A stretch of DNA of 64,000 nucleotides from Polystyrenella longa (GTDB lineage: Bacteria; Planctomycetota; Planctomycetia; Planctomycetales; Planctomycetaceae), in assembly GCF_007750395.1 (NCBI RefSeq), contig NZ_CP036281.1, positions 3,681,001 to 3,745,000 of the forward strand, given 5' to 3'. This document shows positions 2,858 through 51,768 of this stretch, piece after piece. Under the pieces are notes generated by a model. It had not been told where the DNA came from, ran no database searches, and saw nothing but the letters and a program-made list of their open reading frames with translations. Numbering within the stretch: the first letter of the stretch is position 1; every line of letters begins with the position of its first letter. The position numbers were made by a program, and so were the translations under genes.

Positions 2858-3114
2858 GATGATGCTGTACCCCTCTGATTGATGCTTCCTGTGGAACATC
2901 GCTCCAGAGTCAACTGATGACTTATATTGGAAGTTGCAATTGGTTGTATTGTATACAGGGGACCGGTATCCTTGCTGATGAAAAGCGGACTTCCCCATCT
3001 TCACCAAGCAGTTCTATAAGTAGAAATCCTACACCTGGTAATCCACTCCAGCGAATCGCAACTCTGATTCAAAGAAAATACGAGTCAGAGAAATCATAAG
3101 AAGGAATACAATCC

Positions 3115-4314
3115 ATGGACACAACGAACGGCAAGTTAAATCGTAAATTGAATATGGCTCTGATCGGTGGTGGTGCAGGGTCCTTTATTGGCCGCGTCCA
3201 TGCGACTGCGGCTGTCCTTGATAACCGGGCTGCTCTGGTCGCGGGGGCACTGTCTTCCAATCCGGAGAGAGCCAAAGCGTCGGCTCCTTCTTACGACATC
3301 AAAGAAAATCGCGCGTATACTTCTATCGACGAGTTGATCGCCAAGGAAAGTAAACTTCCCGAAGGGGAACGAGTCGATTTTGTCTCCGTCGCCACTCCCA
3401 ACTTCACCCACTTCGAACTTGCAAAAAAAGCCGTAGAAGCGGGATTCAATGTCATCTGTGACAAACCGATGACATTTGACCTGGATCAGGCGGAAGACCT
3501 GCTCAAAACAGTGGAAGCTTCTGGCGTCGTTTTTGCGGTCTCGCACAACTACACTGGTTACCCTCTCGTCCGTCAGGCGCGTGAGATGATTCTCTCGGGT
3601 GAACTCGGTGAGATTCAGGCGATTCGCTCGAACTACATCCAAGGCTGGCTGCGAAGCCGCCTCGAAGAAGAGGACCAGAAACAGGCTGCCTGGCGAACTG
3701 ACCCGAAGAAATCGGGAGCCGCAGGTGCCTTTGGTGACATTGCGACCCACGCTTACAACCTGGGTCGTTATATGACTGGCCTGTTACCGGAAGAGATTTC
3801 CTGCAACTTGAAGGTCTTCGTCCCCGGTCGTCAACTCGACGACTACGGCCATGCGGTCGTCCGTTTTGAAAACGGAGCACTGGGAACTGTCACAGCCAGT
3901 CAGATTTCCCATGGTCGTGAAAATGATCTGTTCATCGAAATCGACGGGACTAAAGGAGCCATTCAGTGGCGACAAGAAGAACCGAATCAGATGATCGTTC
4001 GTTGTAATGGCGAGCCTCACAAAATATACACTCGTGATCCGAATGCTTCCTTTATGAATGGTATGGGGGCCGCCGCCTGTCGCTTGCCTGCAGGTCACCC
4101 GGAAGCTTTCTTTGAAGCCTTCGGTAATGTCTATCGTTCGGCATACGATGCAATGGTTGCCCGCGCAACTGGCGAATCGTTCGAGAAAAAAGAGACCATT
4201 TATCCAAACGTGTACGATGGCGTCGAAGGGATGTACTTCATCCAGCAGTGTGTTGCCAGCTCATCCGAGAATGGTGCCTGGTTGCCAATGAAGCATCCTG
4301 CTGCCCGTCGATAA
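3115..4314 (+). CDS. Gfo/Idh/MocA family oxidoreductase
   Basis: A 399-residue NAD(P)-dependent sugar or cyclitol oxidoreductase. The N-terminal Rossmann fold starts at [16 protein letters not shown] (about residues 11-26), with the glycine-rich dinucleotide loop. The family CDKPM catalytic lysine motif is near 117-122, followed by the C-terminal alpha/beta domain with [20 protein letters not shown] (about 202-221), where the His is the usual substrate residue. AAGGA about 11 bases before the ATG supports the start. There is no signal peptide, so it is cytoplasmic, unlike many planctomycete members that carry a Tat leader. The symporter gene starts 70 bases downstream, so the two may share a transcript. 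The exact sugar substrate cannot be read from sequence. Confidence 0.88.
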
Positions 4315-4384
4315 GGGATTGCTTACACAAAAGGTACTGGCGTCCTCTCCGCTTCCCCTCTTATCTTGATCGTGTGCGAACCCT

Positions 4385-6040
4385 ATGAAATCGTTATTGA
4401 ATCTTCCGCTGCATTATCAAATTTTAATCGCACTGATCGTTGGCTCACTTCTGGGTATCGCCTTCAAACCACCCGTGGTGACGCCGCAGAATATTGTCGG
4501 AACAGTTCAAATCGAGAACGGTGACTTTGTCCTCTCTGAAACTGGTGACGGAGGAAAAACTTACTTTCAAACGACGATCAAAGCGACACCGGATGATCCG
4601 GACAAACAGATGGGAGAGTTGGAACGCCGATTCGACGCTGTAGCGGAAGTCATCAAAGCGGCTCCCGGACAATCCGAATACACGTACACGATCTCGGATC
4701 CTTCCGTTCAACTGATTTCGGAACGGAACAGCATCACTATCCGTTACGTGCGAGAGCAAGAGGGCAAACAGGCGATCTCTTCCATCAAGGCGGCTTCCCG
4801 TGATACTTTAATAAAGGAACATCCCGCCTGGGTCAGTTTCTACGATGAACAGAGTCAGGACTGGCGACACATCCTCGTGTTGGGGGCGAAAGCCCTTGGT
4901 GATATTTTCCTGTCGCTGCTCAAAATGGTAACCATTCCACTGATTGTAACCTCATTAATTTCGGGGATTACTGGTCTCGGTTCGAGTTCACAATTCGGCC
5001 GCATGTTCGGTCGTACTTTATTGTATTACCTCTGTACTTCAGTACTGGCGATCACCACCGGATTGATCATGGTTAATCTGATTCAACCAGGAGTAGGAGC
5101 GATTTTGCCCGGAGGTGGTGAAATTGTCGCCGGAGAAAACGAATCGCTGGCGGGTGTTTTCCTGGGTCTTGTGGATAAATTGATTCCGACCAACATCGTA
5201 GAAGCCCTGGCGAATGCCGATTTTCTATCCATCATTTTCTTCAGTATTCTGTTTGGTATCTTCACAATCTATGCGGGTGGAAAAACAGCCGAGTTCATCA
5301 CAAAAATGGCAAATTCTGGCTTTGAAGTGATGATGCGAATGACCATGGGGATCATTCATCTGGCCCCACTTGGAGTGCTCGCCTTCATGTATTACGCCAC
5401 GGCCACACAAGGCCTGGATATCTTTATCACGTTAAGCTGGTATATGCTGGCTGTCTTTATGGCATTGCTGTTTCACGCCGCTGTGGTTCTTCCCCTGATT
5501 CTCAAATTCGTGGCAAAGACCTCTCCGCTCGCCTTTGCGAAAGCAATGAGCCCTGCCCTGATGACGGCCTTCTCTACTGCCTCTTCTAATGCCACCCTTC
5601 CGTTAACGATCACCAGCGTGGAACAACGGGGCAAAGTCTCAAACAAGGTCAGTTCATTCGTACTTCCTTTGGGAGCCACGATCAACATGGATGGAACCGC
5701 CCTGTATGAGGCAGTGGCTGTTCTCTTTATCGCACAGGCGACGCCCGGAATTGATCTGATAATCATGGATCAGATTCTGGTGGCAGTGACCGCCCTGCTC
5801 GCCAGTGTGGGAGCAGCGGGAATCCCACATGCGGGACTTGTGATGATGGCAATTGTGTTGCAGGCAGTCGGTTTACCGCTGGAAGCACAGGGAATCATCA
5901 TTGCCGTCGACCGCGTTCTCGACATGTGCCGCACGACAGTTAATGTCTGGAGCGACTCCTGTGGTTGTGCCGTGATCGACCGCTTTGAATCCGGAACTAC
6001 CGGTTCTACCGATGAGGTTCTCATCGCTGGTGAAGGTTAA
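4385..6040 (+). CDS. Dicarboxylate/amino acid:cation symporter (DAACS) with periplasmic insert
   Basis: A secondary transporter of the glutamate/dicarboxylate family in the inner membrane. The core motifs are present: a serine-rich re-entrant loop STASSNATLPLTI (about 398-410), the NMDGTALYE motif (about 434-442) and the DMCRTTVNVWSD helix (about 513-524) that binds substrate and cation. The usual protein is about 420-450 residues; this one has 551 because about 120 residues, rich in Thr, Glu and Lys, lie between the first membrane helix (residues 10-28) and the next one (about 165). That stretch would face the periplasm. The canonical NV-G-D motif reads NVWSD here. Substrate is probably a C4-dicarboxylate, glutamate or aspartate. 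It follows the oxidoreductase gene closely. Confidence 0.88.
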   Translation: MKSLLNLPLHYQILIALIVGSLLGIAFKPPVVTPQNIVGTVQIENGDFVLSETGDGGKTYFQTTIKATPDDPDKQMGELERRFDAVAEVIKAAPGQSEYTYTISDPSVQLISERNSITIRYVREQEGKQAISSIKAASRDTLIKEHPAWVSFYDEQSQDWRHILVLGAKALGDIFLSLLKMVTIPLIVTSLISGITGLGSSSQFGRMFGRTLLYYLCTSVLAITTGLIMVNLIQPGVGAILPGGGEIVAGENESLAGVFLGLVDKLIPTNIVEALANADFLSIIFFSILFGIFTIYAGGKTAEFITKMANSGFEVMMRMTMGIIHLAPLGVLAFMYYATATQGLDIFITLSWYMLAVFMALLFHAAVVLPLILKFVAKTSPLAFAKAMSPALMTAFSTASSNATLPLTITSVEQRGKVSNKVSSFVLPLGATINMDGTALYEAVAVLFIAQATPGIDLIIMDQILVAVTALLASVGAAGIPHAGLVMMAIVLQAVGLPLEAQGIIIAVDRVLDMCRTTVNVWSDSCGCAVIDRFESGTTGSTDEVLIAGEG

Positions 6041-6298
6041 TTTGCGGGTTGGGAAAAGTCTCCGTTTAAGCTGTACCACTTGTAGAGCTTAACTCGCAGG
6101 GACTCGCGATATCCCCGACGCGATGTTTGTCCAGACTCGCCTTCCTACGGCAACGAGTCGATATCGAATCTGTACCGCGGTCATTCCGTAAGGAACTCGC
6201 AACTTCTTCGCGCGCTATCTTTGCCCGCGAAACTTGTACAGTTTTCGCTCGCCTTTACGCATCCGTTCCGGATCAATCGTTCGCAGGGCACCATCATT

Positions 6299-7897
6299 AT
6301 GAATCATGGATTAAAAATTAGCACAGCTTCTGTACCTCAACGTCAGTGGCTCGACCCTGACTTTCTCGCCTGGATCCAATCCAATTGCAGCGAATTGCGA
6401 AAGATCACTGGATGGCCGGTGCACTTTGTGCCCTCTCAACAGAATTCAACTGAAAAAGAGCCTCAGGCTCCCGTTCAGGAACATTGCTGGGTGACGGAAG
6501 TCAACGACGGTGAAACTCGTGTAGGACATCTTCGCGTCGATTTACCCGACATCGATCCGCCAGAATGTTCTTTCCAAACCATGCGTGAAATGGTCGAACT
6601 GACCAGCAAGCTACTCAGCGCCTGCTCCGTTCGTCAGCGGCTTTCGGTCACCTACGCTCAGGAACTGTCGACGCTCGTGTCGCTCGATTTCACCTGCTCT
6701 ACGGAAATGAATCTGATCGACCGACTAAGCAGCATTCTCGATGTTGCCATTGAACTATCCGGTTACAAAGAGGCCGGGTTCTATTTACTTGAACCTGAAA
6801 ACAGCTGCCTCAAACTTCGCGTGCGTACGTCTCGGGCGAGTTTTAGAATTCCTCAGACTCAGCGGGAATTAACTGTCGACTCCGCCGATGTGGAAATCTT
6901 CTCCCAGGGTTCCCTTCTGGTGCGGCGCAATCAGGAGAGCGAGTATGAAGAGTCTCTTCCGCATGATGCGGCCGTCGGATTCGGTCTGGTTGTGAAATCG
7001 GAGACGGGACCGCTGGGGACTGTCTGGTTCTGGGATCGTCGCGACAAAGTTCCAACGGAACGCGAAATCCACGTGCTGCAATCAATCTCAACTCAGATCG
7101 CACAAATGCTGGAGAAGGTGGTGCTCATGAAAGAGAGCGCCGTCCAGCGTCGCATGCAGCATGACCTGATTCAAGCTTCCGCCTGTCAACCGGAACAGAT
7201 TGTTCAGTATCAACCGGAGAACGGCCTCTGGGAAGCTGCCGGAATATGCACAAGTCGTTTTGAACTCGGCGGCGACGTCTTCGAATTGATCGCTCTAGAC
7301 GAGCATCACACTTTGATTGCTGTCGGAGATGCCTCGGGTGACAGTGTTCCCGCCGCGATGATCATGTCGACCGTCCGAGGTGCGCTGCGTTCTCTTGCCA
7401 GTTCTCCCATTGAAGAGCTAATGGACCCGGCTGCGATTATGTATCGAGTCAATAACGTGTTGTGTGAACTGACACCCTCCCATCAGTTCATGAGCATGCT
7501 TATTGGAATTCTCGATACTTCTGAGAATTGCTTTCGATATTCCAACGCGGGACATCCCACGCCATTTTATTCACGCGATTGTGAAGTAGAAGCGTTACAG
7601 TCGCATGGAGTTCTGCTGGGAGTGATGGAAGATGCTGAGTATGACTACTCTGAACTTAGCCTTCGTCCGCAGAGCCTTCTTGTCTTCTACAGTGACGGCA
7701 TCAGCGAAGCGATGAATGATCGAAAAAAGTTATTTCATTCCGAGGGAATCGTTCGTGGTCTCAAAGGCTGTCTTCTCGGTACTGCCCAGGAAGTCTTTGA
7801 AGAAATCTGGGCGAATATGGAAGGACACAGCCAGGGAGCGGACGAACCGGATGACCGCACACTGGTGATTCTGAGAATGCTATCCGACAGCGAGTAA
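6299..7897 (+). CDS. GAF-domain PP2C/SpoIIE-type Ser phosphatase
   Basis: A cytoplasmic 532-residue protein combining a central GAF-like sensor (about residues 110-275) with a C-terminal SpoIIE/RsbU-type PP2C phosphatase (about 310-530). Phosphatase features include the FELGGDVFELIALDEHH start, the GDASGDSVPAAMIMS metal-binding Asp/Gly motif, YSDGISEAMND, and the terminal DDRTLVIL. Such enzymes dephosphorylate anti-anti-sigma proteins or other signalling partners. ATG at 6299 is chosen; the frame could extend to a TTG at 6221, but that stretch lacks a start signal. The gene converges on a response regulator only 26 bases downstream. There is no receiver domain in this protein, so the neighbour could supply the input, although they are on opposite strands. 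Confidence 0.85.
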   Translation: MNHGLKISTASVPQRQWLDPDFLAWIQSNCSELRKITGWPVHFVPSQQNSTEKEPQAPVQEHCWVTEVNDGETRVGHLRVDLPDIDPPECSFQTMREMVELTSKLLSACSVRQRLSVTYAQELSTLVSLDFTCSTEMNLIDRLSSILDVAIELSGYKEAGFYLLEPENSCLKLRVRTSRASFRIPQTQRELTVDSADVEIFSQGSLLVRRNQESEYEESLPHDAAVGFGLVVKSETGPLGTVWFWDRRDKVPTEREIHVLQSISTQIAQMLEKVVLMKESAVQRRMQHDLIQASACQPEQIVQYQPENGLWEAAGICTSRFELGGDVFELIALDEHHTLIAVGDASGDSVPAAMIMSTVRGALRSLASSPIEELMDPAAIMYRVNNVLCELTPSHQFMSMLIGILDTSENCFRYSNAGHPTPFYSRDCEVEALQSHGVLLGVMEDAEYDYSELSLRPQSLLVFYSDGISEAMNDRKKLFHSEGIVRGLKGCLLGTAQEVFEEIWANMEGHSQGADEPDDRTLVILRMLSDSE

Positions 7898-39982: not shown

Positions 39983-41341
39983 TCAGGCGATCCATACAGT
40001 CTTCACATTGACGAATTCATGAATGCCTGGTTTTCCCAATTCGCGACCGTACCCGGAATTCTTGATACCACCAAAACTGATTCTTGGATCGGACTTCACA
40101 ATCTCATTCACAAAGACGGCACCACTTTCGATGCGGGGAACCAGCTTATCCGCAAGCTCAATATTTTTCGTCCAGAGGGAACCGCCGAGTCCGAAACTGG
40201 AATCATTCGCCAACTGAATCGCATGATCAACGTCATTCGCTTCAACTAAAACAGCTACCGGCCCGAACATCTCTTCTTGGAACGCGATGTTATCTGGTTT
40301 GATATTCTCCAGAAGCGTAGGAGCATAATAACTGCCGACTCGGTCCAGCGGTTTTCCGCCACATACCAGTACACCTCCCTGCTGCACACTCTTTTCGACC
40401 TGGGTGTGTAGTTCTTCACGAAGGTCCTGTCGCGCCATCGGGCCGATATCGGTCGCTTCATCCAACGGGTCACCGACTTTCAACGATTCGATCCTAGAGA
40501 CGAGAGCATCCTTGAACTCCTTTATGATCTCGGTCTGCACGATAAACCGTTTCGCTGCAATACAGCTCTGGCCCGTGTTCTGCATCCGTCCTTTAATAGC
40601 TTTTGCAGCGACATCGTCGATATCGACATCGGCCAGGACTATAAAAGGATCCGAGCCTCCCAACTCCAAAACAGATTTCTTAATCTGCTTGCCCGCCTGC
40701 CCTGCAACTGCTCGGCCAGCCTCTTCGCTGCCTGTTAAGGTAACCGCTTTGATATGCGGACTGTCGATAACTTTTTCAATCGCGGAAGATTTCAGGGGCA
40801 ATGTCGACCAGACATGCGGAGGAAACCCAGCCTCCTCCGTCAATTGTTGAATCGCAATCGCGCAACCTTGCACATTGGAGGCATGTTTTAACAGGCCAAC
40901 ATTTCCTGCCATCAGATTCGGAGCCAGAAAACGAAAAACCTGCCAGAACGGAAAGTTCCAGGGCATCACGGCTAGTACAGGGCCCAGTGGGTCATAACGA
41001 AAGTAGCTGTGACTGGCAGACGTCTCAACGGGAACAGGTTGCAGAAACTCTTCCGCCCGCTCCGCATAGAATTCGCAAACTAAGGCACATTTCTCGATTT
41101 CGGCGGTTGATTCCGAAATCGGCTTTCCCATTTCATTGGTGATCAGCCTGGCATAGATCTCCTTGTCGGACTTCAATCCGCTTGCCAGATTGAGCATCAT
41201 TTTCTTGCGACTATCGAAAGACGTCTCACGCCATTCTTTATACGCATTCGCAGAGAATTGAAGCTGCTCCGTGACTTGCTGCTCAGTCCAAACCGGATAC
41301 TCCCCGATCAATTCTCCATTCGCTGGATTGATGGACTTCAT
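39983..41341 (-). CDS. NAD(P)-dependent aldehyde dehydrogenase (succinate-semialdehyde type)
   Basis: A 452-residue oxidoreductase of the ALDH family that oxidises a semialdehyde to the acid. The catalytic Glu is in LELGGSDPFIV (about 227), the Cys in NTGQSCIAAKRF (about 261), with AVMPWNFPFWQVFRFLAPNL (about 119-138) in the cofactor fold and GPVAVLVEANDVDHAI near 355. The MKSINPANGELIGEYP start is characteristic of succinate-semialdehyde dehydrogenases. GGAGG about 6 bases before the ATG marks the start. It is 37 bases downstream of the M24 gene, so it is very likely in the same operon. Its substrate may be set by that pathway (see findings). Confidence 0.9.
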   Translation of the reverse strand: MKSINPANGELIGEYPVWTEQQVTEQLQFSANAYKEWRETSFDSRKKMMLNLASGLKSDKEIYARLITNEMGKPISESTAEIEKCALVCEFYAERAEEFLQPVPVETSASHSYFRYDPLGPVLAVMPWNFPFWQVFRFLAPNLMAGNVGLLKHASNVQGCAIAIQQLTEEAGFPPHVWSTLPLKSSAIEKVIDSPHIKAVTLTGSEEAGRAVAGQAGKQIKKSVLELGGSDPFIVLADVDIDDVAAKAIKGRMQNTGQSCIAAKRFIVQTEIIKEFKDALVSRIESLKVGDPLDEATDIGPMARQDLREELHTQVEKSVQQGGVLVCGGKPLDRVGSYYAPTLLENIKPDNIAFQEEMFGPVAVLVEANDVDHAIQLANDSSFGLGGSLWTKNIELADKLVPRIESGAVFVNEIVKSDPRISFGGIKNSGYGRELGKPGIHEFVNVKTVWIA

Positions 41342-41378
41342 TGTTCCCTCCTATTCTGGTTGACGGAACAGCGGTCAG

Positions 41379-42482
41379 TTAATATCCGGTGGGAATCGTG
41401 GTTATCTTTTCGAGCCCCGACTCACCAAGATAATAAACTTCTTCGATCCGCAGTCCCCCTTTGAGTTCATCGTGATACAGACCAGGCTCGACTGTAAACA
41501 AATCTCCGACCTCGAAATAATCGTCCCATTCAGGATTCAAATGAGGTGCCTCGTGTGGAGAAAGACCGAGCCCATGACCGAGGTGGTGCGGAAACGACCA
41601 ACCTCGATAGTCATTGAGACTATTATAGGCGTTTTCGTAAACTTCGCGGCAACTGACCCCGGGACGCACCGAGGATTCGACCAGTTGAATGGCCTCCAGC
41701 ACCTGCTCACGCGCTTCCTCCTGGGCAGCAGAGGGACTATCCACGGCTATCGTCCGGCACATATCGCTACGATACCCACGACACTCGACACCCAGGTCGA
41801 TGACGGCTAACTCGCCCGATTCGGCCGGGCGATAACGAGGTAATCCCCCCCCTTCCCCACAGCGGAAGTCGTTCCCGAAGAAACCGAAATGTTCTCCTTG
41901 AAGATTGCCCAGAATCTGCATCATTCCTGCGTACAACTCGACTTCGGTAACACCCACTTTGAGATTTTCACGCACGTACTCATAGGCTGCTTCCGTTGTC
42001 TGAAACAATCTTTTGAAGAGTTCGATTTCGTCGTCATACTTTCGGCGTCGCTGTTTTAATATTGCCGGATACAGGTCGACCTGCTCGATCCCCTCCACGG
42101 GAAGCAATCCGGGACGGATACCGAAGTCGACGCCCAGCCTTTTCACATTGTGTAATTCGGTGGACAACTCGAGCAGGCTGTTTTGCAGTTGCTCTTCCAC
42201 CATCGTCGCGACTTTGTTGAAAATATAGTTCTTCTTAATGTCAACCGCCGTGGGCCAGTCGCATTCGAACGGCATGACCAGAGTCCGCACGCCATCACGA
42301 GTCATCAGGAACAAGGGTGCAAAAAAAGGACGTTCCCAGTAAGCGGCGTAATAATGCACATGTCGTGGATCGCCAATTAAGACGGCATCCAACTGTTGCT
42401 CTTCCATCAAGCGTACGAGGTGCTGTTGTCGCTCTTCGCAGGATTTAACGGATAAAGTGGGAATTGGCGAGTGGACTTGCAT
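41379..42482 (-). CDS. M24 metallopeptidase family protein (Xaa-Pro aminopeptidase/creatinase fold)
   Basis: A 367-residue pita-bread fold enzyme. The five metal ligands are present: two Asp in VIDLGVECRGYRSDMCRT (about 227-244), His in FPHHLGHGLGLSPHE (about 298-312) and two Glu in FTVEPGLYHDELKGGLRIEE (about 331-350). The N-terminal half is the creatinase-like domain. Members hydrolyse Xaa-Pro peptide bonds, but others open cyclic or amidine substrates (creatinase, ectoine hydrolase DoeA). AGGA 8 bases before the ATG supports the start. It is flanked by an RraA-family gene and an ALDH, and the AspA-family gene diverges beyond, which suggests small-molecule catabolism rather than peptide digestion. 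Confidence 0.9.
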   Translation of the reverse strand: MQVHSPIPTLSVKSCEERQQHLVRLMEEQQLDAVLIGDPRHVHYYAAYWERPFFAPLFLMTRDGVRTLVMPFECDWPTAVDIKKNYIFNKVATMVEEQLQNSLLELSTELHNVKRLGVDFGIRPGLLPVEGIEQVDLYPAILKQRRRKYDDEIELFKRLFQTTEAAYEYVRENLKVGVTEVELYAGMMQILGNLQGEHFGFFGNDFRCGEGGGLPRYRPAESGELAVIDLGVECRGYRSDMCRTIAVDSPSAAQEEAREQVLEAIQLVESSVRPGVSCREVYENAYNSLNDYRGWSFPHHLGHGLGLSPHEAPHLNPEWDDYFEVGDLFTVEPGLYHDELKGGLRIEEVYYLGESGLEKITTIPTGY

Positions 42483-42505
42483 AGTCGTATCCTGTGATGC
42501 TCTAC

Positions 42506-42537
42506 TTAAGTGTTAATAATGTTAAGTGTTAATAATG
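42506..42537. repeat. Perfect 16-bp tandem duplication before M24 gene
   Basis: ttaagtgttaataatg occurs twice in direct tandem (42506-42521 and 42522-42537) in the 87-base gap between the RraA-family gene and the M24 gene. In the transcribed direction it lies just upstream of the M24 start. It could be an operator pair or a recent slippage duplication. Confidence 0.8.
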
Positions 42538-42569
42538 TTTCCAAAGATACTGATTCAGTGAATCAGAAC

Positions 42570-43220
42570 TTATAAAACACCGAATTTTTCATAGGCTTCG
42601 GTCGCTTTCATTCCTGCTTTGATCGCATCTCGGGTCACGTTTTCAGCGTTAATTTTTCCCCAGGCATCCTGCAACACCTGCAATTCGACTTGCCGGGGAA
42701 CCACGACCACACCATCAATGTCAGCCATCACCAGGTCGCCCGACTCGAACCGAACACCATCGATCTCCACAGGGACATCATATTCAACAACCCGTTGCCG
42801 GTGCTGAGAGTCGTAAGGGGAAGTTCCGGCGGCATAAACAAGAAAGTCCATTTCCCGCATCTGGCGAACGTCTCGAACGCACCCATTAATGAGTGCACCG
42901 ACACAACCCTGGTTCCGTGCTGCGGTGGAGAGTAATTCTCCCCAAATCCCCGATCGGCGAGAGCCTTGAGCAGCAGCGATGATGACATCGTCCGGCTGAC
43001 AGGAATCAACCGCTTTGAGTTCCTGCTCGTAGGGGTTCGGATCTTCGTGAGCCATATCCATCCACAAAGTGGTCTTACAGCGTCCCACCAGCGGACGGTC
43101 CACTGTTAATGGTCGCAATTCAATGCGGGGCGACTGATGCCGAAACCCCAGACTATCCAACACATCACATAAAACAGCGGTATAAAATTTTTCGCGGATT
43201 AACTCCAACGTGATTTCCAT
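42570..43220 (-). CDS. RraA-family protein (aldolase or ribonuclease regulator fold)
   Basis: A 216-residue RraA/MenG-fold protein. Typical marks are DVIIAAAQGSRRSGIWGELL (about 77-96), ALINGCVRDVRQMREMDFLV (about 110-129) and GDLVMADIDGVVVVPRQ near 160-175. Family members either bind RNase E or act as class II aldolases on 4-hydroxy-4-methyl-2-oxoglutarate-type acids. Given its neighbours, an enzymatic role is the better guess here. The gene is the first of the minus-strand unit RraA - M24 - ALDH. No strong SD precedes the ATG. It is divergent to the AspA-family gene with about 250 bases between. Confidence 0.88.
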   Translation of the reverse strand: MEITLELIREKFYTAVLCDVLDSLGFRHQSPRIELRPLTVDRPLVGRCKTTLWMDMAHEDPNPYEQELKAVDSCQPDDVIIAAAQGSRRSGIWGELLSTAARNQGCVGALINGCVRDVRQMREMDFLVYAAGTSPYDSQHRQRVVEYDVPVEIDGVRFESGDLVMADIDGVVVVPRQVELQVLQDAWGKINAENVTRDAIKAGMKATEAYEKFGVL

Positions 43221-43471
43221 GAGATGACTCGATTTCTATACTGGGTGGTTCCTGCCAGATCATGTCGTCCGACCAGATTCTGAATAAGCTGCATCCTAGC
43301 ATGAGTGGTACAATTATTTGTAGCCTCCGTCAGTACGTATGATCATACGAGTCATTATTTAAGTCCCCACACTGTTCCCTCAATCCTACGAACCTTTCTG
43401 GAATACTGCAAAGTTTTCTCAAGCTGATAACAATGCTGTCCCTTCCATCGCTTCTGAATGAAAGCTCAACC

Positions 43472-44482
43472 ATGTCGCTATCAAAAATCGAAATCACCGG
43501 GCAACATGAAGGGCCGCATCTGTTGATCACGGGTGGTGTTCATGGAGACGAGTTTGAACCGATGGTGGCGATCCAGCGATTGGAAACGTACCTCTCTACG
43601 AGAACTACCGGACTCCATGGAAGAGTGACATTGATTCCGATTGTTAATGAAGCGGCTTTCGCACGTGGTTCACGAACTGCCGACGATGAAAAAGACCTCG
43701 CACGAACCTGCCCCGGAAATGCTGAGGGAACCATCACCGAGCAGATCGCCGATCAATTGACTGCAGAGATTCGACAAGCGGATTGTTACATGGACCTGCA
43801 TACGGGCGGCACACGGATTGCGGTCTATCCGCTGACTGGTTACATGCTGCACACGGATCCCAAAGTATTAGAGACATCACGCCGTATGGCACAGGCGTTT
43901 GGGCTTCCCGTCGTCTGGGGAACAACACCGAACCTCGATGGCAGGTCTCTTTCAATCGCAAGAGAGGTTCCCATCCCTGCGATATACACTGAATATCTGG
44001 GGGGAGGAACATGCTCACCGCGCGGAGTCAGGGCTTACATACAAGGATGCCTGAATGTCCTCCATGAGCTTCAACTGCTGGAGGGCGATGCCCCCCGACT
44101 CGACCCGGGAACCTCACGTGAGTTCGTGCAATTGACTATCGAAGACGACCGGGAACAAGCGGGCCATATGCAGATCAATCACCCGGCTTCGCGGGCTGGT
44201 TTATGGACGCCCGAAGTCGAATTGGGCAGCTACGTTGAGAAGGGAGAAAGATTGGGAACCATCGCTTCTGCAGATGGAAAACAGCAATCGGAAGTCGTCG
44301 CTAATCAGACGGGATTGGTACTGGTGCTGCGTACATTTTGTTATGTCGCTCAAGAAGAGTTTCTTGCAGTCATCCTGGAACCACCGACGGAGGAAGCCGG
44401 CTCAATGATGCAACAGATTTCAAAACATCAACCCTTGTTTATGCATTCCGTCTCCCTGAATCAGCTGCTAGACTGTAATTAG
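43472..44482 (+). CDS. Succinylglutamate desuccinylase/aspartoacylase-family deacylase
   Basis: A 336-residue zinc hydrolase of the AspA/AstE (M14-like) family that removes an acyl group from an N-acylated amino acid. The zinc ligands are His and Glu in LLITGGVHGDEFE (about 17-29) and the later His in CYMDLHTGGTR (about 104-114). The pattern GRVTLIPIVNEAAFARGSRT with a following TCPGNAEGTITEQIAD resembles ectoine-pathway DoeB-type deacetylases more than aspartoacylase. ATG at 43472 is used; a start at 43433 would add 13 residues, neither has a strong SD. It has a C-terminal beta-domain with GLWTPEVELGSYVEKGERLG, as in this family. It diverges from the RraA gene. Confidence 0.85.
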   Translation: MSLSKIEITGQHEGPHLLITGGVHGDEFEPMVAIQRLETYLSTRTTGLHGRVTLIPIVNEAAFARGSRTADDEKDLARTCPGNAEGTITEQIADQLTAEIRQADCYMDLHTGGTRIAVYPLTGYMLHTDPKVLETSRRMAQAFGLPVVWGTTPNLDGRSLSIAREVPIPAIYTEYLGGGTCSPRGVRAYIQGCLNVLHELQLLEGDAPRLDPGTSREFVQLTIEDDREQAGHMQINHPASRAGLWTPEVELGSYVEKGERLGTIASADGKQQSEVVANQTGLVLVLRTFCYVAQEEFLAVILEPPTEEAGSMMQQISKHQPLFMHSVSLNQLLDCN

Positions 44483-44530
44483 TAACTGCCCCAACTTCCC
44501 ACCATTTAACCAATGCCCCCGAGGAAATTG

Positions 44531-45922
44531 ATGCTCCGTCTGCTGCGACCCGCTGTTGTATCTTTCCTGATTCTAAGTAGCTGTACTTTCCTTGCGGCCG
44601 CTGAATGGCAAGCCGGTTTGTCGAAAGCAGCCATCACACCACGCAAACCGGTATGGCTTTCGGGATACGGTGGACGTGATCGCCCCGCAGAGGGAAAAGT
44701 CCACGACCTCTTTGCCAAGGCTGTTGCGTTTCAGTCGCCTTCCGGCACACGCTTAGTTCTGGTGACCACGGACCTTGGTTCCATGTCTCCCGAGATTTAC
44801 AATCACGTACTTCGGCAGGCCGAAAGTCAGTGGAAACTCGGTCGTGAAGCATTGGTCATCAATGCCTCCCATACTCATTGTGCCCCGGAAATCTGTGCCG
44901 AACGTCGTGTCTTTCACAAACTGACTGACCAGGCCGAAGCCGATCTCGTTGATTACATCGACAATCAACTAAAACCGACACTCGTTAAGCTGGTAGGCGA
45001 TGCGCTCGCCGACTTGAAACCGGCGCAACTCAGTGTGAGTCAGTCGGCGGCCTACTTCGGTAAAAGCCGGCGGTTCCCCACGACTGAGGGCGAATTCATC
45101 AACCAGCGGAACGACGCTGGAATTACAGACAACACCGTTCCCGTCCTGAAGATTACAGGGCCAAAGGGGAAACTCCGCGGTGTACTGTTTGGATATGCCT
45201 GCCATAACACGACATTGGCTTTCTATCAGTTTTGTGGAGACTACGCCGGTTTCGCCCAGTACGACATTGAAGAGCAGCATCCAGGGGCAGTCGCGATGTT
45301 TGTGATGGGCTGTGGTGGTGATCAGAACCCATACCCTCGCCATGGTCCGAATGGTCTGAACTATTGCAAACAGCATGGCCGTGAACTGGCTGACGCCGTC
45401 CTTACTTCCCTTAAGGGGCCGCAACTGGCAATCAAAGGGGAATTGCAAGTCGCCTCAACCGATGTAACACTTGATCTGGAACCACTGCCTCCTTTGGAAA
45501 CGATTCGAACTCAAGCGGAAGGTGGTCAGGAAACTCCGACATCTCGCAAAGCCAATTATCTACTTAAGCAAATCGAAACTAATGGACAGGTCGATTTAAC
45601 TCAGAACTGCCCGTTGAATGTCGCCCGGTTTGGCGACGATCTACTGTTTGTGTTTGTAAGTGGCGAAACGGTTCTTGATTACGCCCGTCTCTGTCAGTTC
45701 GCCTTTGGCGGACAGATGGTCTGGGTCGCCGGTTATAACAACGATGTCTTCGCCTACCTTCCTTCCCAGCGAATCTTGCTGGAAGGTGGCTATGAAGGGC
45801 GAACGGGCATCATCCACCAACTGACCCCGACTCCATTCCTGCCTACGGTAGAAGATAGGGTCATGGGTGGAATTCGGCAATTGGTCGAAAAAGTCTCTCA
45901 ACCCGTACCAGTCACAAAATAA
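44531..45922 (+). CDS. Secreted neutral-ceramidase-like protein, copy 1
   Basis: A 463-residue exported protein of the neutral/alkaline ceramidase N-terminal family. The signal peptide is about residues 1-27 (ending LAAAEW). Zinc-ligand positions are preserved: His in NASHTHCAPE (about 119), His in FGYACHNTT (about 229), Glu in FVSGETVLDYARL (about 380) and Tyr in GYNNDVFAYLPS (about 417). The usual nucleophile motif GDVSPN reads GCGGDQNPYPR, so the serine is replaced by Asn. GAGG six bases before ATG at 44531 supports that start. A paralogue follows on the same strand. The enzyme may hydrolyse another N-acyl or ester substrate. Confidence 0.85.
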   Translation: MLRLLRPAVVSFLILSSCTFLAAAEWQAGLSKAAITPRKPVWLSGYGGRDRPAEGKVHDLFAKAVAFQSPSGTRLVLVTTDLGSMSPEIYNHVLRQAESQWKLGREALVINASHTHCAPEICAERRVFHKLTDQAEADLVDYIDNQLKPTLVKLVGDALADLKPAQLSVSQSAAYFGKSRRFPTTEGEFINQRNDAGITDNTVPVLKITGPKGKLRGVLFGYACHNTTLAFYQFCGDYAGFAQYDIEEQHPGAVAMFVMGCGGDQNPYPRHGPNGLNYCKQHGRELADAVLTSLKGPQLAIKGELQVASTDVTLDLEPLPPLETIRTQAEGGQETPTSRKANYLLKQIETNGQVDLTQNCPLNVARFGDDLLFVFVSGETVLDYARLCQFAFGGQMVWVAGYNNDVFAYLPSQRILLEGGYEGRTGIIHQLTPTPFLPTVEDRVMGGIRQLVEKVSQPVPVTK

Positions 45923-46016
45923 GAAACCAAGCCGCCGATCCTGTAGCATTCGTTGGCTCCACCAGAAGGTTTTCGTTTCAACTTTAATAATACCCTATCG
46001 ATTGAGTTTTCTATCC

Positions 46017-47429
46017 ATGATGTTCCTGTCTCGTATTCGTGTACTGACCGTCGCAACCGGCCTGCTTTTGATCGTCTCTCTGTTCGCTGGATCAGTAGAG
46101 GCTCAGGCTGGTTGGAAAGCTGGCCTGGCTGAAGCCAATATCACTCCCGAGACAGCCATGTGGATGGCGGGCTATGGTGGACGCTCCAAACCAGCCACCG
46201 GTAAACGACAAGACCTCTGGGTGAAAGTCGCCGCCATCGAAGACGAATCTGGAAACCGAGCCGTCATCTTCAGCACCGACTTATTAGGAATTCCCCAGTC
46301 CATTTACAACAACGTCTGTGCAGAATTAGAGAGCAAACATCAGCTCAGTCGTTCGCAGATCATGCTAAACAGCTCACATACCCATAGCGGCCCCGTCTTG
46401 AGAGGAGCGTTACATGACATCTACCCATTGGACGAACATCTATTAGATCTGATTGAAGACTATTCCAACAAACTAGAGAACACACTCGTCAATATTGCAG
46501 GTGAAGCGTTGGAGAGTTTGGCACCGGCGACGTTAAGAGCAGGAAACGGGTCTGCCGACTTCGCCGTGAATCGCCGAAACAACAGCGAAGGGGCCGTCCC
46601 TTCCTTGCGAGAAAAAGGAGAAGCTCTGGCTGGCCCCGTCGACCATGATGTTCCTGTACTGGCGATTTACAATGACAAAAAGGAACTTACTGCCGTCATC
46701 TTCGGTTATGCTTGTCACAATACAGTCATGGGTGACTATCTGTGGCATGGAGACTACGCTGGCTTTGCACAGGCCGCATTCGAAGAGAAACATCCGGGAG
46801 TAACCGCTCTATTTTACATGGGCTGTGGTGGCGACCAGAATCCCATTCCCAGACGCGAAGAAAAACTACTGACCGTGTATGGCGAAAAACTGGCCAACGC
46901 CGTCGATCAGGTTGTCAGCGATGATAGCCAATTGACTACACTTTCGCCCAAGCTTGAAACAACACATCAGTTTGTCGAACTCCATCTCGCCGATCAGCCC
47001 ACTGCAGACGAACTACAGGAGATCATCGATAACCCCAATCGAGCGGAATATCAGAAACGGTGGGCGTCCCGTCTGCTGAAAGAAATGGAAGACGGAACCA
47101 CTTTCGTAACTAGCTACCCGCTTCCTATTCAAGCCTGGGAACTGGGCGACCAGCAATTGTGGTTAACGATTGGTGGCGAAGTAACCGTCGACTATTCGCT
47201 GGGCTTCAAAAAGATGTTTGGCAAGCAAACCTGGGTGGCCGGATACTGCAACGATGTCCCCGCATATATTCCTTCGCTGCGAGTTCTGGAAGAAGACAAA
47301 GTAAAAATGGGCTACGAAGGCCACAGTTCCATGATGGTCTATGGGCTTCCCGCATTTCGCTGGGCCGACGATGTCGAAGACCAGATCGCCAATGGCATGA
47401 CTGAACTTGTTAAACAGGTCCGGCCTTAA
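46017..47429 (+). CDS. Secreted neutral-ceramidase-like protein, copy 2
   Basis: A 470-residue paralogue of the preceding gene with its own signal peptide (about residues 1-29). The same zinc ligands appear: His in SSHTHSGPVLRG (about 121), His in FGYACHNTVM (about 239), Glu in GGEVTVDYSLGF, Tyr in GYCNDVPAYIPSLR (about 417). The nucleophile segment reads MGCGGDQNPIPRRE, again with Asn for serine. Copy 2 keeps SHTHSGP, closer to genuine ceramidases than copy 1 (SHTHCAP). Two adjacent ATGs (46017, 46020) are possible starts with no good SD. The intergenic gap is 94 bases, so they may be co-transcribed. This is a tandem duplication that has diverged. Confidence 0.85.
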   Translation: MMFLSRIRVLTVATGLLLIVSLFAGSVEAQAGWKAGLAEANITPETAMWMAGYGGRSKPATGKRQDLWVKVAAIEDESGNRAVIFSTDLLGIPQSIYNNVCAELESKHQLSRSQIMLNSSHTHSGPVLRGALHDIYPLDEHLLDLIEDYSNKLENTLVNIAGEALESLAPATLRAGNGSADFAVNRRNNSEGAVPSLREKGEALAGPVDHDVPVLAIYNDKKELTAVIFGYACHNTVMGDYLWHGDYAGFAQAAFEEKHPGVTALFYMGCGGDQNPIPRREEKLLTVYGEKLANAVDQVVSDDSQLTTLSPKLETTHQFVELHLADQPTADELQEIIDNPNRAEYQKRWASRLLKEMEDGTTFVTSYPLPIQAWELGDQQLWLTIGGEVTVDYSLGFKKMFGKQTWVAGYCNDVPAYIPSLRVLEEDKVKMGYEGHSSMMVYGLPAFRWADDVEDQIANGMTELVKQVRP

Positions 47430-47562
47430 AGACCGCGTCTGGGTTCCAGAGGCGAGGTTGGATAGAACATATCGCATGTAACCGTGGTGGGTTCTGGCTG
47501 CTTAAAATCACGTTTGTGAAAACTTCTCGTGTTCTGTAGCCGCTAAACTTTCCTGGAAAAAT

Positions 47563-49893
47563 TTAGAACTCGAACTTTGCCCAGTAGATTTGCTGTCGAT
47601 CGTATCTAGTCCGATAGTCATCCAGGATGACCTCGATATCGGGCTCGATCAGTTCCTTGAGCTTCTGGCTGCCTTTGACCTTCAGGATCAGTTGCTGATT
47701 GAAGTCATGCAGCTGGGGAGAAATGTAGAAGGTGTGTCCGCTACCCAGAGTCTTGGTGACCTGTAAGGTCGTGCTGTCGCCCTTATGACTGGTCAGTTTC
47801 GCTTCCAGCGGCACAGTTCTTCGGCGTGAAGATAACCTCGCGAGTTGGACTTCTAGCCCTCTGCATTCGATCCAGTCGACTTTGACTTCATCCTGAGGGA
47901 CAAACGCCTCGTATTCTATTTCCAACTGATCGAGATTCCGGTTTTGCAGCGCCATCCAGTCAAACAGTTGGACCTGCTCCTCGCGATACCACTCCGAGAC
48001 ACGATTAGGATACTGGGCATAAATCAGATCACTATTCCCCTGAAACATCTTGTTTAACAACGCAGAATGGCGACCGTCATATTCGCCCCCCACAAGATAC
48101 CAAGGCAATCTCTTGCCATTCTGCCAGTAATGAAGAGCATCTTCGGCATGTCGCCCGCGAATGCTGATGACTCCTGCGAAAAGATCGGGATGCAATATTC
48201 CGGCATCGATTGCCGCATCGCCGCCATCCCCAATCCCGGCGATGAACACCTTATCTGAATTCACAGAAAACTGACGTCGAACTTCCATCAATGCCTGATG
48301 AATCCGTTTGAGTTCTAGAAGATTGTGGTTATAGCGAAGCCCCTGCGTTACCTGAAATTGAGGCACCACCAGCAAGTAACCTCGACGTAAAGTCTCGCCC
48401 GTTTCCTCAGCAGTCCCCCCCCACCATTCGAGAAAGGTCTGAGGATCAATTCCGGTAGGTGGCAATGCAAGCAGTACCGGGTATTGCCGAAAGGGAGAAT
48501 ATTCCAGAGGTGGCAGTACCGAGTATTTCATCTCGTTGTCCTGATGATCGCGCAGGGTCAAATCGACCTGTGTCCCCCCAGTAATGGGAGTATCGGAAGG
48601 AACGGGGGGAAGATTTTGCAATAAAGCGGTCAGCCGCTCCGCGTTCAAGCTTTCGATCGATTTGATTTGATTGACGAGCTGGGCATCATGTTCGCGGGAT
48701 CTCAGGAAGTCATACACGAGAAACCGAGCCTGCCATAAATTTAAAGTCAGCTGCAAATCGTCAACTGCTGCTTCCGCCCCCAGTATCCAACCGGAATAGG
48801 CGAGGGCCAGCCTTTCTTCTGCAGTCAGCGTGGCATCTTTCTCCAGTTCAAAGAATGAATTCAATCGAGGAAGCGATGCCTGAGAGAGTTCTTCTGATAC
48901 GATTCGCCGAATCAGGTTCAGCTTGGGATCTTCCTCGTGATTGGCCAGTTGACTTTGCAGTTCCGCAAGAATGAGCGGCGTCGAATCCAACCTTTCGAGG
49001 TCAGTCGCATATTGTTTAATAAACTTATCAATTTCAAACAGCACTTCGGGAGCTATATCATTTCGTGGCAAAGCTTGGGCGGATTCATAGGCCAAGTCGT
49101 ACTGACCCAGTTGGCGCCGGGTCTGGATTTCATTGAAGAGCTTTAACGCCAGTTGCTCTCGAATTTCGAGCCGGACGTCCTCGTATTCTTTACCATCGGT
49201 TGCGTATTTTTCTGTAAGTTCATCAAGGAACTGATAGGCCTCGTAAGTTTTATCCGCCTGAATATAAAAACGAGCGATCGAACGCTGCATTTTGGGATCA
49301 TCAATATCGGCAGACGAAAGCAGTAGCTTGTGCAGAATTGCGGGCGGAATGGAGTCTGTACTGAGAGTGACATCCCATTCGTAATTGAGGCCCTGAACTT
49401 TAACATATCGGGGATGCAGAAACGTAATGCCTTGAATAACCAGTATATTGCCGCGTGAAGTATGAATAGTGACTTCACGTTGACCTAGTTCATCAAAGGG
49501 GGTGATCTTTCCAACACCTTGTAAGAGCTTCAGCGGAATCGATTTGCGTCCAGATTTCACCTGCGGGATTTTAAAAATATCAAAAGCGGATAAGAGGTCG
49601 CTTTTCACCGTCCGACCATCAACTGCCAGCAGGTCATCGGAGATATAGTAGGTCCGAATCTGGTCATCAACCTGGATAATCGGGTTGTACCGAAATTCGC
49701 CCTCTTTTCGAGGATCACCGATGTTTCGCTGGTTCGTATTTACGATGTACTGATCGATACTGCGAATCAGCTTGCTATCACCTCGAAGAACAAACCCATT
49801 CTCCAAACGAATCTCGTCTGCAGAACTTAATGGAGCAAATACGCCCATCATCAGGAAGGCGATTAAAACAGAATTGGCAAATTGAGATTTCAT
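47563..49893 (-). CDS. Large secreted protein with nucleophile-less alpha/beta-hydrolase domain
   Basis: A 776-residue exported protein, signal peptide about residues 1-25. Residues 25-200 hold strand-rich segments around RLENGFVLRG and VTIHTSRGNILVI. Residues 200-420 are mostly helical, TPR-like. From about 450 to 660 there is a PHB-depolymerase or prolyl-oligopeptidase-like domain: VLLALPPTGIDPQTFLEWWG, then GYLLVVPQFQVTQ, and the elbow FIAGIGDGGDAAID (about 551), where the G-x-S-x-G serine is Gly. GGEYDGRHSALLNKMF (about 605) would hold the acid. The C-terminal 90 residues are beta-rich. Convergent with the ceramidase pair. Confidence 0.75.
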   Translation of the reverse strand: MKSQFANSVLIAFLMMGVFAPLSSADEIRLENGFVLRGDSKLIRSIDQYIVNTNQRNIGDPRKEGEFRYNPIIQVDDQIRTYYISDDLLAVDGRTVKSDLLSAFDIFKIPQVKSGRKSIPLKLLQGVGKITPFDELGQREVTIHTSRGNILVIQGITFLHPRYVKVQGLNYEWDVTLSTDSIPPAILHKLLLSSADIDDPKMQRSIARFYIQADKTYEAYQFLDELTEKYATDGKEYEDVRLEIREQLALKLFNEIQTRRQLGQYDLAYESAQALPRNDIAPEVLFEIDKFIKQYATDLERLDSTPLILAELQSQLANHEEDPKLNLIRRIVSEELSQASLPRLNSFFELEKDATLTAEERLALAYSGWILGAEAAVDDLQLTLNLWQARFLVYDFLRSREHDAQLVNQIKSIESLNAERLTALLQNLPPVPSDTPITGGTQVDLTLRDHQDNEMKYSVLPPLEYSPFRQYPVLLALPPTGIDPQTFLEWWGGTAEETGETLRRGYLLVVPQFQVTQGLRYNHNLLELKRIHQALMEVRRQFSVNSDKVFIAGIGDGGDAAIDAGILHPDLFAGVISIRGRHAEDALHYWQNGKRLPWYLVGGEYDGRHSALLNKMFQGNSDLIYAQYPNRVSEWYREEQVQLFDWMALQNRNLDQLEIEYEAFVPQDEVKVDWIECRGLEVQLARLSSRRRTVPLEAKLTSHKGDSTTLQVTKTLGSGHTFYISPQLHDFNQQLILKVKGSQKLKELIEPDIEVILDDYRTRYDRQQIYWAKFEF

Positions 49894-50037
49894 GAACCTG
49901 ATAACAGCCCTGTCACTGGTGCGAGAAGCAGAAGAATCTTGGCCCTTATATTGTAGGTCATCCCGCGGCCTCTGAGGAGAGGAATTTCGCGGTGGTTCGA
50001 CTCATGAAAACTGGGCATGCATCCGCAATCGCTTTGA

Positions 50038-51768
50038 CTAACCTGTAATCATGGGAAGCCAGTCTTCACGGAACAGGAACGCAATCCATCCGGCGCCGAG
50101 TAAAACGACGATAATGATGAGGTAGACAATAAAACCAATCCCCCCAACCATCCCCTGAAAGAGGTTCTTAACCCATTTCCACCGTTTCTGCCGGTCATAT
50201 TGCTGAGCCAGTTTTTCGTACTGCTGGGCCGTGTTTTTTCCACGCTGATCAGCCGTATCCTGAGCAATCCGTTGATGCATGAATCCCTGGAATTCCACGT
50301 ATTGCGTTAAAGGAACGAATTGTCCCTTATTCCCCTCGCGCGCCCGGGCACGTTTATCAAACATCCCGGCTTTGATTCCCTTGATCACTTGCTCGGTCGA
50401 GAATTTATTGAGAGTCGACTTGCCTTGGGCGTCGAAGAACCGGACGTACCAGGCTTTACCAGCTGACGTTTCCATGGTTCGGGAAACTTCGGCCTGTTGA
50501 GCGTCCTGTGCCGAATTAGGCGGGGTATAAGCGGGCGTAGTTCCCCCTGTAGTTCCCCCACCCGGTTTCGATCCAATTGCTGTGTGCCCGCCGGGCGACT
50601 GTGTGACCCCTCCGCGGCTGGACATGCCCATACTACTGGGATGTCCGATTCCCGCACTCTCAACCGCCCCATCTATAAAACTCAAAGAGGGTGAATGTAA
50701 TCCGAGTCCGACTAGATCATTGACCAATTCTGCACAATCGCCGTAGCGGGCATTGGGATCTTTGGCCAGCATTTTATCAATCATCAAATCGAGACGACTC
50801 GGAATCTCGCTGTTGATCTGCCGGGCACTCTTAAAAGTACCTTTTTCTTTTTCCAGAATCAGTTCGAGGGTATCTTTCCCTTTGAAAGGAAGTTCACCTG
50901 TGAGGAAATAGTAGAGTGTACAACCGAGGGCATAGATATCGGTACGCAGATCGACATGCTTGGCATTTCTTGCCTGCTCCGGGGCCATGTAGAGAGGTGT
51001 TCCCAGTCCCGTGCCGCTCTGAGTCATTGAGACGTCTTCATCAATCGCCTTGGCGAGACCAAAGTCAGCGACTTTCACAATCCCTTTGGATGTGATCAAA
51101 ATATTATCTGGTTTGATATCACGATGGATCATTTTCAGATCGTGAGCCTGCTTCAATGCCTGAGCACATACCAGAACGACATGCAACGAGTCACCGACAG
51201 TCAATCGTTTCCGCTGATTCATCCAGACCTGCATGCTGTAACCGTCGATGTATTCGATGGCTACATAGTTGATTCCCTTCTGGGAATCCGCTGCGTAAAC
51301 CTGAACCACGTTCGGATGGTGTAATCGTGCCATAGAGCGTGCTTCGCGCAGAAAACGTTCCACGAAGTCCGGTTTCTTCGCCAGTTCTTTGGACAACGTT
51401 TTAATGGCGACGGGACGATCCAGGCTGACTTGCTGAGCCAGAAAGACTTCACCCATGCCCCCCTTACCAAGACGCTTGCGTAGACGAAAGTCGCCCAACT
51501 GGGTTGCCTTTTTTCCTGATGACGGAGTGTTCGATTTCCCAGGAAGATTCGGCACGGATGGTGGCACAGGCGAAGGGGTCGAGGGCTGGGGAGGTGTGTC
51601 CGGCATGATCGGTTTCGTCTCTGAATTGGATTCCGCAGCCCCAATAACGGTCGCCCCCAGTGCATTAATCTGTGTCTGATCTGGAGTTGGCTTCGCTCCC
51701 TGCCTCTGACTGGAATGATGCGAAGGAGAGGTGAGCGATTTGTCCTGTGGAGGAAGTGAAGCAGTCAT
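50038..51768 (-). CDS. Membrane-anchored Ser/Thr protein kinase
   Basis: A 576-residue eukaryotic-type kinase. An N-terminal Pro/Ser-rich region of about 90 residues precedes the kinase domain (about 92-355): GKGGMGEVFLAQQ glycine loop, VAIKTL lysine, catalytic IHRDIKPDNILI (about 218-229) and VADFGLAKAI (about 238-247). After a Gly-rich linker (about 385-425) comes a compact GYF_2-like module with AWYVRFFDAQGKSTLNKFST (about 442-461). The C-terminal membrane helix is at about 540-562, IVYLIIIVVLLGAGWIAFLF. The membrane segment ends near the C-terminus with basic residues inside, so the kinase faces the cytoplasm. The target is unknown. Confidence 0.9.
   Translation of the reverse strand: MTASLPPQDKSLTSPSHHSSQRQGAKPTPDQTQINALGATVIGAAESNSETKPIMPDTPPQPSTPSPVPPSVPNLPGKSNTPSSGKKATQLGDFRLRKRLGKGGMGEVFLAQQVSLDRPVAIKTLSKELAKKPDFVERFLREARSMARLHHPNVVQVYAADSQKGINYVAIEYIDGYSMQVWMNQRKRLTVGDSLHVVLVCAQALKQAHDLKMIHRDIKPDNILITSKGIVKVADFGLAKAIDEDVSMTQSGTGLGTPLYMAPEQARNAKHVDLRTDIYALGCTLYYFLTGELPFKGKDTLELILEKEKGTFKSARQINSEIPSRLDLMIDKMLAKDPNARYGDCAELVNDLVGLGLHSPSLSFIDGAVESAGIGHPSSMGMSSRGGVTQSPGGHTAIGSKPGGGTTGGTTPAYTPPNSAQDAQQAEVSRTMETSAGKAWYVRFFDAQGKSTLNKFSTEQVIKGIKAGMFDKRARAREGNKGQFVPLTQYVEFQGFMHQRIAQDTADQRGKNTAQQYEKLAQQYDRQKRWKWVKNLFQGMVGGIGFIVYLIIIVVLLGAGWIAFLFREDWLPMITG

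Follow-up and report, generated by a model that had tools for sequence, protein, structure and literature searches.

Neutral ceramidases (N-acyl-sphingosine amidases) work through a zinc-activated water, and amide hydrolysis is the known chemistry of their superfamily. The structures used for comparison are those of the Pseudomonas (2zws) and human (4wgk) enzymes. In a review that covers the human structure (PMC6952831), His196, Arg257, Tyr579 and Tyr591 of human neutral ceramidase are named as critical, while Ser354 is placed at the base of the pocket, where it stabilizes Arg257, and outside the residues so named. We analyzed a 64,000-nucleotide stretch of the Polystyrenella longa chromosome (NZ_CP036281.1, positions 3,681,001 to 3,745,000; hereafter the window), in which two neighboring genes, A and B, encode ceramidase-like proteins. 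Both are a variant on the known fold and belong to a subfamily with a fixed Asn in the active site. With a probability of about 0.62, we read them as exported zinc hydrolases with an intact catalytic site, which belong to the neutral ceramidase superfamily and cleave a small polar substrate, not ceramide, at an amide or ester bond.

Both genes are intact open reading frames (ORFs) on the + strand, 94 bp apart, encoding 469 (A, counted from the first ATG) and 470 (B) amino acids. An earlier note, made from the sequence alone, had started the range at 44531, which is a later in-frame ATG of gene A; the ORF itself stood, and its first ATG is at 44513. Each protein begins with a hydrophobic, signal-like segment, as judged by eye, and both are probably exported. 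The two proteins passed the curated cut-off (32.1 bits) of the Pfam model PF04734 (Ceramidase_alk), and the family profile matched 2zws at E 1.8e-23, a likeness far above chance. The alignments behind the AlphaFold2 models combined window and GTDB proteins (80 sequences for A and 47 for B); the models were confident, with predicted template modeling scores (pTM) of 0.91 and 0.90; the predicted local distance difference test scores (pLDDT) are given in Table 1. When the models were compared with known structures by VIA-align, 2zws was matched at a root-mean-square deviation of 3.1 (A) and 3.2 (B), with the Z scores listed in Table 1, and 4wgk at Z 37.5 (A) and 36.2 (B); the alignments to these two structures spanned 386-395 residues at 19-23% identity. 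The next families below the ceramidases scored Z 6.8 or less, and these candidates (BapA, ornithine acetyltransferase, nylon hydrolases and others) were read as sharing a common arrangement only. Foldseek matched 2zws at E 3.0e-29 (A) and 3.6e-30 (B). The aligned ranges covered residues 1-490 (A) and 1-488 (B) of the 646 residues of the 2zws chain, the C-terminal domain being without a counterpart. A and B are thus predicted to adopt the fold of the neutral ceramidase catalytic domain, without the C-terminal domain, and the comparison with the Pseudomonas enzyme that the earlier note had proposed gave the same catalytic-domain fold.

The catalytic set comprises, in the numbering of A, His120, His122, Arg187, His231, Glu385, Tyr415 and Tyr427. 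All seven positions were invariant in 80 aligned rows and identical in three canonical ceramidase rows. Among 56 homologues scoring above 150 bits, the three His, Arg187 and Glu385 were present in every one, and Tyr415 and Tyr427 in 55, with one gap. The zinc-ligand positions (His, His, Glu and Tyr) aligned with those of 2zws in the family profile, although the stretch with Glu and Tyr was weak when taken alone (9.3 bits), and the earlier statement that both copies keep these four residues was borne out. Both proteins retain counterparts of the zinc ligands and of human His196, Arg257, Tyr579 and Tyr591. At columns conserved in at least 90% of rows, A deviates at seven and B at five, none of which is one of the seven catalytic positions. 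From this conservation and the predicted fold, we infer that both proteins bind zinc and are active.

The Ser (or Thr) of the ceramidase motif GD-x-S-P-N is absent from A and B, and Asn stands there in both. In the phmmer alignment of A with 2zws, the Asn of GGDQNP fell on the Ser of GNLSPN; when the 80-sequence profile was compared by HHalign with two canonical ceramidases, the Asn column fell on the Thr of the first; and in the MAFFT alignment the same column held Thr, Ser and Ser in the canonical ceramidases of Kitasatospora, Legionella lytica and Nocardia (the Nocardia row being residues 1-760 of an unannotated, 951-residue ORF). These three alignments agree with the earlier note, which had set Asn in the serine place and suggested an alignment of family members at that position. 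Asn was found there in 56/56 close homologues, which came from whole-protein searches made without the motif. One of the two peptide patterns of the GTDB scan was G[GA]DQNP[LYI]PR, so that the conservation of Asn in the 80-row alignment is partly by construction; the case for it rests on the whole-protein searches and on those usable GTDB loci without the search pattern, 33 of 78, all of which carry Asn (two of the 80 loci, L129 and L132, were left out for internal stops). Further away, the site is less uniform: five haloarchaeal relatives have Asn, Asn, Lys, Lys and Lys, and the 11 distant relatives at or below 150 bits, of 67 trimmed, have Ser (3), Thr (3), Asn (2), Val (1), Gly (1) and a gap (1).

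The residue at this site differs from group to group, whereas the metal site, the Arg and the Tyr do not change, a pattern that hardly suggests a nucleophile. The earlier note had taken Asn as the loss of a nucleophilic serine, a reading that is doubtful: the review puts the Ser at the pocket base, and the catalytic counterparts are kept in A and B (PMC6952831). That premise is also the sole support for regarding A and B as pseudo-enzymes that lost catalysis together with the Ser, which is highly improbable given that all 80 rows share the catalytic set, that the deviations of A and B at conserved columns spare it, and that the Ser is described as structural in the review.

Could A and B instead be ordinary ceramidases, with Asn doing the work of Ser? 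The common fold and the kept catalytic residues are consistent with this, as is the Thr at this site in a protein of a Kitasatospora indigofera plasmid (L173, 2402-4423; loci are labeled L and searched genomes G), which is annotated as a neutral ceramidase and whose gene adjoins a sphingomyelin phosphodiesterase gene. However, on the NCBIfam neutral ceramidase model NF041649, with its cut-off of 1200, B scored 25.9 bits and A had no match at E 0.01, and none of the genes of the genome reached that cut-off. The absence of the C-terminal domain and an invariant Arg specific to the subfamily argue in the same direction, and we consider ordinary ceramidase activity quite improbable.

The subfamily, termed DxNPxPR, is defined by Asn272, Arg276, Arg186 and Cys230 together with the full catalytic set, and each of these four residues was present in A, in B (where C233 is the counterpart of Cys230) and in 56/56 homologues above 150 bits. 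Arg186 immediately precedes the catalytic Arg187, and Cys230 is next to His231, the second zinc-ligand His. Near-invariant here and not in the canonical rows were Arg186, Cys230 and Arg276 (56/56 each), Cys267 (55/56), Asp389 and Glu424 (54/56 each), Arg420 (53/56) and Arg55 (Arg in 48 and Lys in 8 of 56). Charged residues are frequent among these and suggest that the substrate is polar or acidic. Of the 59 genomes searched (own included), 51 gave matches at E 1e-20 or better, and the GTDB scan yielded at least 590 stretches encoding relatives. The titles of the 80 listed GTDB loci named Planctomycetota, Verrucomicrobiota, Acidobacteriota and Omnitrophota, some being unplaced, and relatives were also present on haloarchaeal plasmids. 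The earlier proposal of a zinc hydrolase subgroup in planctomycetes therefore held as to a separate subgroup, but not as to its confinement to that phylum. The genome of P. longa has four close members, namely A, B, one at 2603511 and a 1594-residue frame at 837400; a PF04734 scan of this genome gave at least 12 stretches in 11 genes, and gene A was not among them though it passes the same model. A phylum-wide DNA motif search matched at least 17 of 294 genomes and was not used as evidence, its pattern limiting the residues after the first Pro. A search of literature listings found no study of the DxNPxPR subfamily.

In the mechanism that we propose, zinc held by His120, His231, Glu385 and Tyr415 (A numbering) would activate water, and His122, Arg187 and Tyr427 would work as their ceramidase counterparts do. 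Asn272 would line the base of the pocket and hold the Arg side, where ceramidases have Ser or Thr. The substrate would be small and polar, perhaps of carbohydrate type or acidic, and its amide or ester bond would be cleaved outside the cytoplasm; amide or ester cleavage is proposed from membership in the superfamily. A polar substrate, possibly of carbohydrate type, is offered as a lead only, and the gene context of family members elsewhere bears on it. The operon listing covered 69 of the 78 loci, with the frame of one row (L157) wrongly picked. The 96 same-strand bacterial neighbors scanned were mixed and included 7 DUF1501 genes, 7 sulfatases, 5 DASS transporters (sodium:sulfate/dicarboxylate symporters), 3 ROK, 2 DegT and 2 fucosidases. 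The haloarchaeal regions, the DegT genes and the fusions described below give stronger hints. In five haloarchaeal regions, from the seven haloarchaeal rows (H6-H12) among the 30 matches listed, sulfatase and Gfo/Idh/MocA genes occurred in 5/5, a sugar-phosphate isomerase or TIM-barrel protein in 4/5 and DegT in 4/5, abutting or overlapping in two. DegT was present in 5 of the 80 GTDB loci; in three of them (L095, L111 and L156) it followed the family member directly, on the same strand. In haloarchaea too, a DegT/DnrJ aminotransferase gene adjoined a ceramidase-like gene (L176, 10741-13290; L177, 10748-13281). The DASS gene lay directly downstream of the ceramidase-like gene in L137, L141, L142, L143 and L145; since the transporter of L137 shares 84-94% identity with the remaining four, all five represent one lineage and the gene was dropped as a recurrent partner.

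In 25 of the 59 genomes a member lies inside a very long open frame of at least 1390 amino acids. All five long proteins scanned were fusions with DUF7133 (L083, L151, L033, L169 and L158), three of which also matched cytochrome c, and 2/2 of the long fusion proteins matched NCBIfam PVC-type heme-binding models; the heme-bearing module may be a dehydrogenase. A separate DUF7133-cytochrome gene stands directly beside a member in L147 (3158-6148) and L148 (1-2988). The carbohydrate-type neighbors in haloarchaea and the heme-module fusions would also accord with cleavage of another bond, such as a lactone or glycoside, at the same metal site, but nothing points to a specific bond and we hold this to be very unlikely. 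A bolder extension, which we consider unlikely, is that the DxNPxPR proteins are an unrecognized enzyme class that deacylates amino-sugar-like or other polar carbohydrates outside the cytoplasm and passes the product to aminotransferases, oxidoreductases or the attached heme module.

Several points weigh against our preferred reading, that of intact hydrolases acting on a small polar substrate. Mutagenesis has reportedly shown the human Ser to be required for activity, which a structural role would explain too. The 56 homologues are the top-scoring loci of genome searches together with paralogues, and are no random sample. The polarity of the substrate is drawn from conserved Arg residues. The bacterial neighbors are mixed and their counts are raw, and no carbohydrate genes lie directly beside A and B. 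DUF7133 alone occurs in 25 stretches of the P. longa genome, which makes adjacency to it weak evidence. Lastly, the role of Ser354 is drawn from a single review (PMC6952831).

Identity between proteins A and B is 37-39%. A quick FastTree tree of 149 rows placed A in a set of 75 rows (support 98) and B in a set of 52 rows (support 97), the two sets being mutually exclusive; long branches and weak forks occur elsewhere in this tree. Local tandem duplication was accordingly rejected as their origin. By match coordinates, the two genes stand side by side in the genus of the window (own genome, G001 and G002) and in none of the other searched genomes. Adjacency in this genus only, together with the separate tree sets, leads us to read the pair as old paralogues of different clades that have come to lie next to each other. 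Among candidate side-by-side loci elsewhere, a clear second family member beside the first was present in L100 only (72.2 bits). Neighbors in L119, L147, L148, L151 and L158 were tried as second members and rejected: the large ones in L147 and L148 are DUF7133 proteins without PF04734, and of the neighbors of 440-513 amino acids, those in L147, L151 and L158 had no Pfam match and that in L119 scored 25.4 bits, below the cut-off. A gene of 438-513 amino acids, related to the family but below the reach of Pfam (no match or 25.4 bits), was nevertheless observed just upstream of the member in L147 (390-1730), L151 (1196-2515), L158 (8472-10010), L119 (8558-9889) and L034 (143-1456), and we read it as a recurrent distant partner. 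Promoter and terminator scans gave signals no better than shuffled sequence.

Table 1. Coordinates of genes A and B, their putative active-site residues and related genes. Positions are those of the window unless a locus is named.
Feature	Position	Strand	Evidence
Gene A, predicted ceramidase-fold zinc hydrolase, DxNPxPR subfamily	44513..45922	+	PF04734 48 bits; model pLDDT 93.5; Z 40.5 to 2zws, 395 residues
A: HTH motif, His120 (putative zinc ligand) and His122 (counterpart of human His196)	44870..44878	+	Profile alignment to 2zws; invariant in 80 rows
A: Arg187, counterpart of human Arg257	45071..45073	+	Arg in 80/80 relatives, 5/5 haloarchaeal and 3/3 canonical rows
A: His231, putative zinc ligand	45203..45205	+	Phmmer, profile and MAFFT alignments
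A: Asn272 at the ceramidase Ser place	45326..45328	+	Phmmer to 2zws; Asn in 56/56 homologues above 150 bits
A: Glu385, putative zinc ligand	45665..45667	+	Profile alignment to 2zws; invariant in 80 rows; MAFFT
A: Tyr415, putative zinc ligand	45755..45757	+	Profile alignment to 2zws; invariant in 80 rows; MAFFT
A: Tyr427, counterpart of human Tyr591	45791..45793	+	Profile alignment to 2zws; invariant in 80 rows; MAFFT
Gene B, predicted ceramidase-fold zinc hydrolase, same subfamily, other clade	46017..47429	+	PF04734 63.5 bits; pLDDT 92.5; Z 39.4 to 2zws, 392 residues
B: HTH motif, His121 and His123	46377..46385	+	Invariant in 47-sequence B alignment
B: Arg187, counterpart of human Arg257	46575..46577	+	Invariant in 47-sequence B alignment; MAFFT
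B: His234, putative zinc ligand	46716..46718	+	47-sequence B alignment
B: Asn275 at the ceramidase Ser place	46839..46841	+	47-sequence B alignment; MAFFT
B: Glu388, putative zinc ligand	47178..47180	+	47-sequence B alignment
B: Tyr417, putative zinc ligand	47265..47267	+	47-sequence B alignment
B: Tyr433, counterpart of human Tyr591	47313..47315	+	47-sequence B alignment
M14 AstE/AspA-type deacylase, 30 bp upstream of A	43433..44482	+	PF24827 92.3 bits; DoeB model 98.3 bits against cut-off 402.7
Ceramidase-like and DUF7133 fusion, L083 (G000:C1:832000-846000)	2002-6783	-	HEAT repeats and heme domain in most fusions

Upstream of A lies the gene of an M14 deacylase, and divergent from it are genes for RraA, an M24 peptidase and an aldehyde dehydrogenase. 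That all of these form one pathway with A and B for an N-acylated compound is quite unlikely in our judgment. The M14 gene, A and B run in one direction with short gaps, their order is the same in both other genus members, two of the 80 GTDB loci (L107 and L113) have an M14 gene at 2-4 kb from a family member, and RraA is near the A orthologue in G026. On the other side, M14 matches at E 1e-30 occurred in 25 of the 59 genomes (own included) and, judged by match coordinates in assemblies many of which are fragmented, adjoined a listed family member in the genus of the window only. Eight of eight M14 loci fetched from other genera, one of them (L181) only 5 kb long, had no A/B homologue. In seven loci outside the genus, ten scanned neighbors of A/B orthologues revealed nothing recurrent, and the gene context of the orthologues was dropped as a substrate clue. 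The deacylase is therefore probably not part of the A/B system, and the amide- or acyl-cleaving locus of the earlier note is weak, the adjacency of the deacylase being peculiar to the genus while the two GTDB loci with M14 at 2-4 kb speak for it. Ectoine degradation was rejected as a role for the neighborhood, with DoeB at the score in Table 1 and DoeA at 45 and 22.2 bits against cut-offs of 575 and 613.

Among the eight fetched loci, RraA was beside M14 in two, one of these also with M24. An RraA-like gene divergent from an M14 deacylase (within 39983-43220, -, and 43433-44482, +, in the window; also in L181 and L188) was seen in other genera without ceramidase-like genes, and the pair is possibly a catabolic module of its own. 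Downstream in the window, a 776-residue protein (47563-49893, -) had no Pfam match and a weak polyhydroxybutyrate depolymerase-like C-terminal part. In L138 (9767-16500), of another lineage, a protein kinase gene (488 bits to the window kinase at 50038-51768) lies about 3.4 kb from a B-type member in the order of the window (46017-51768), and L077 gave a weaker match to this kinase (180 bits).

The annotated copies looked at carry ceramidase-domain or hypothetical labels, even though a fixed active-site residue and the overall architecture set the subfamily apart from ceramidases. Should the proposed reading hold, the subfamily is a large group of exported zinc hydrolases without a known substrate, and the site occupied by Asn, Ser, Thr or Lys is a handle for testing the part of that residue in the ceramidase mechanism.

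Compared with known systems, the haloarchaeal plasmid proteins, annotated as "neutral/alkaline non-lysosomal ceramidase N-terminal domain-containing protein" or hypothetical, are 29-38% identical to A and B and keep Arg55, Arg186 and Cys230 in 5/5; unlike A and B, they have Asn or Lys at the Ser site and lie in regions with sulfatase and Gfo/Idh/MocA genes, mostly with DegT. The fusions of PF04734 with DUF7133 (with or without HEAT repeats and cytochrome c) have the same subfamily domain with the Asn kept (L083 and L033), but form open frames of about 1400-2000 amino acids, whereas A and B stand alone. Neutral ceramidases of Pseudomonas (2zws) and human (4wgk) have in common with A and B the predicted fold over about 390 residues, the four zinc-ligand positions, the second His, the Arg and the second Tyr. 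They differ in that A and B have Asn for Ser or Thr, the motif D-x-N-P-x-P-R with the invariant Arg276, the extra Arg186, Cys230, Cys267, and no C-terminal domain.

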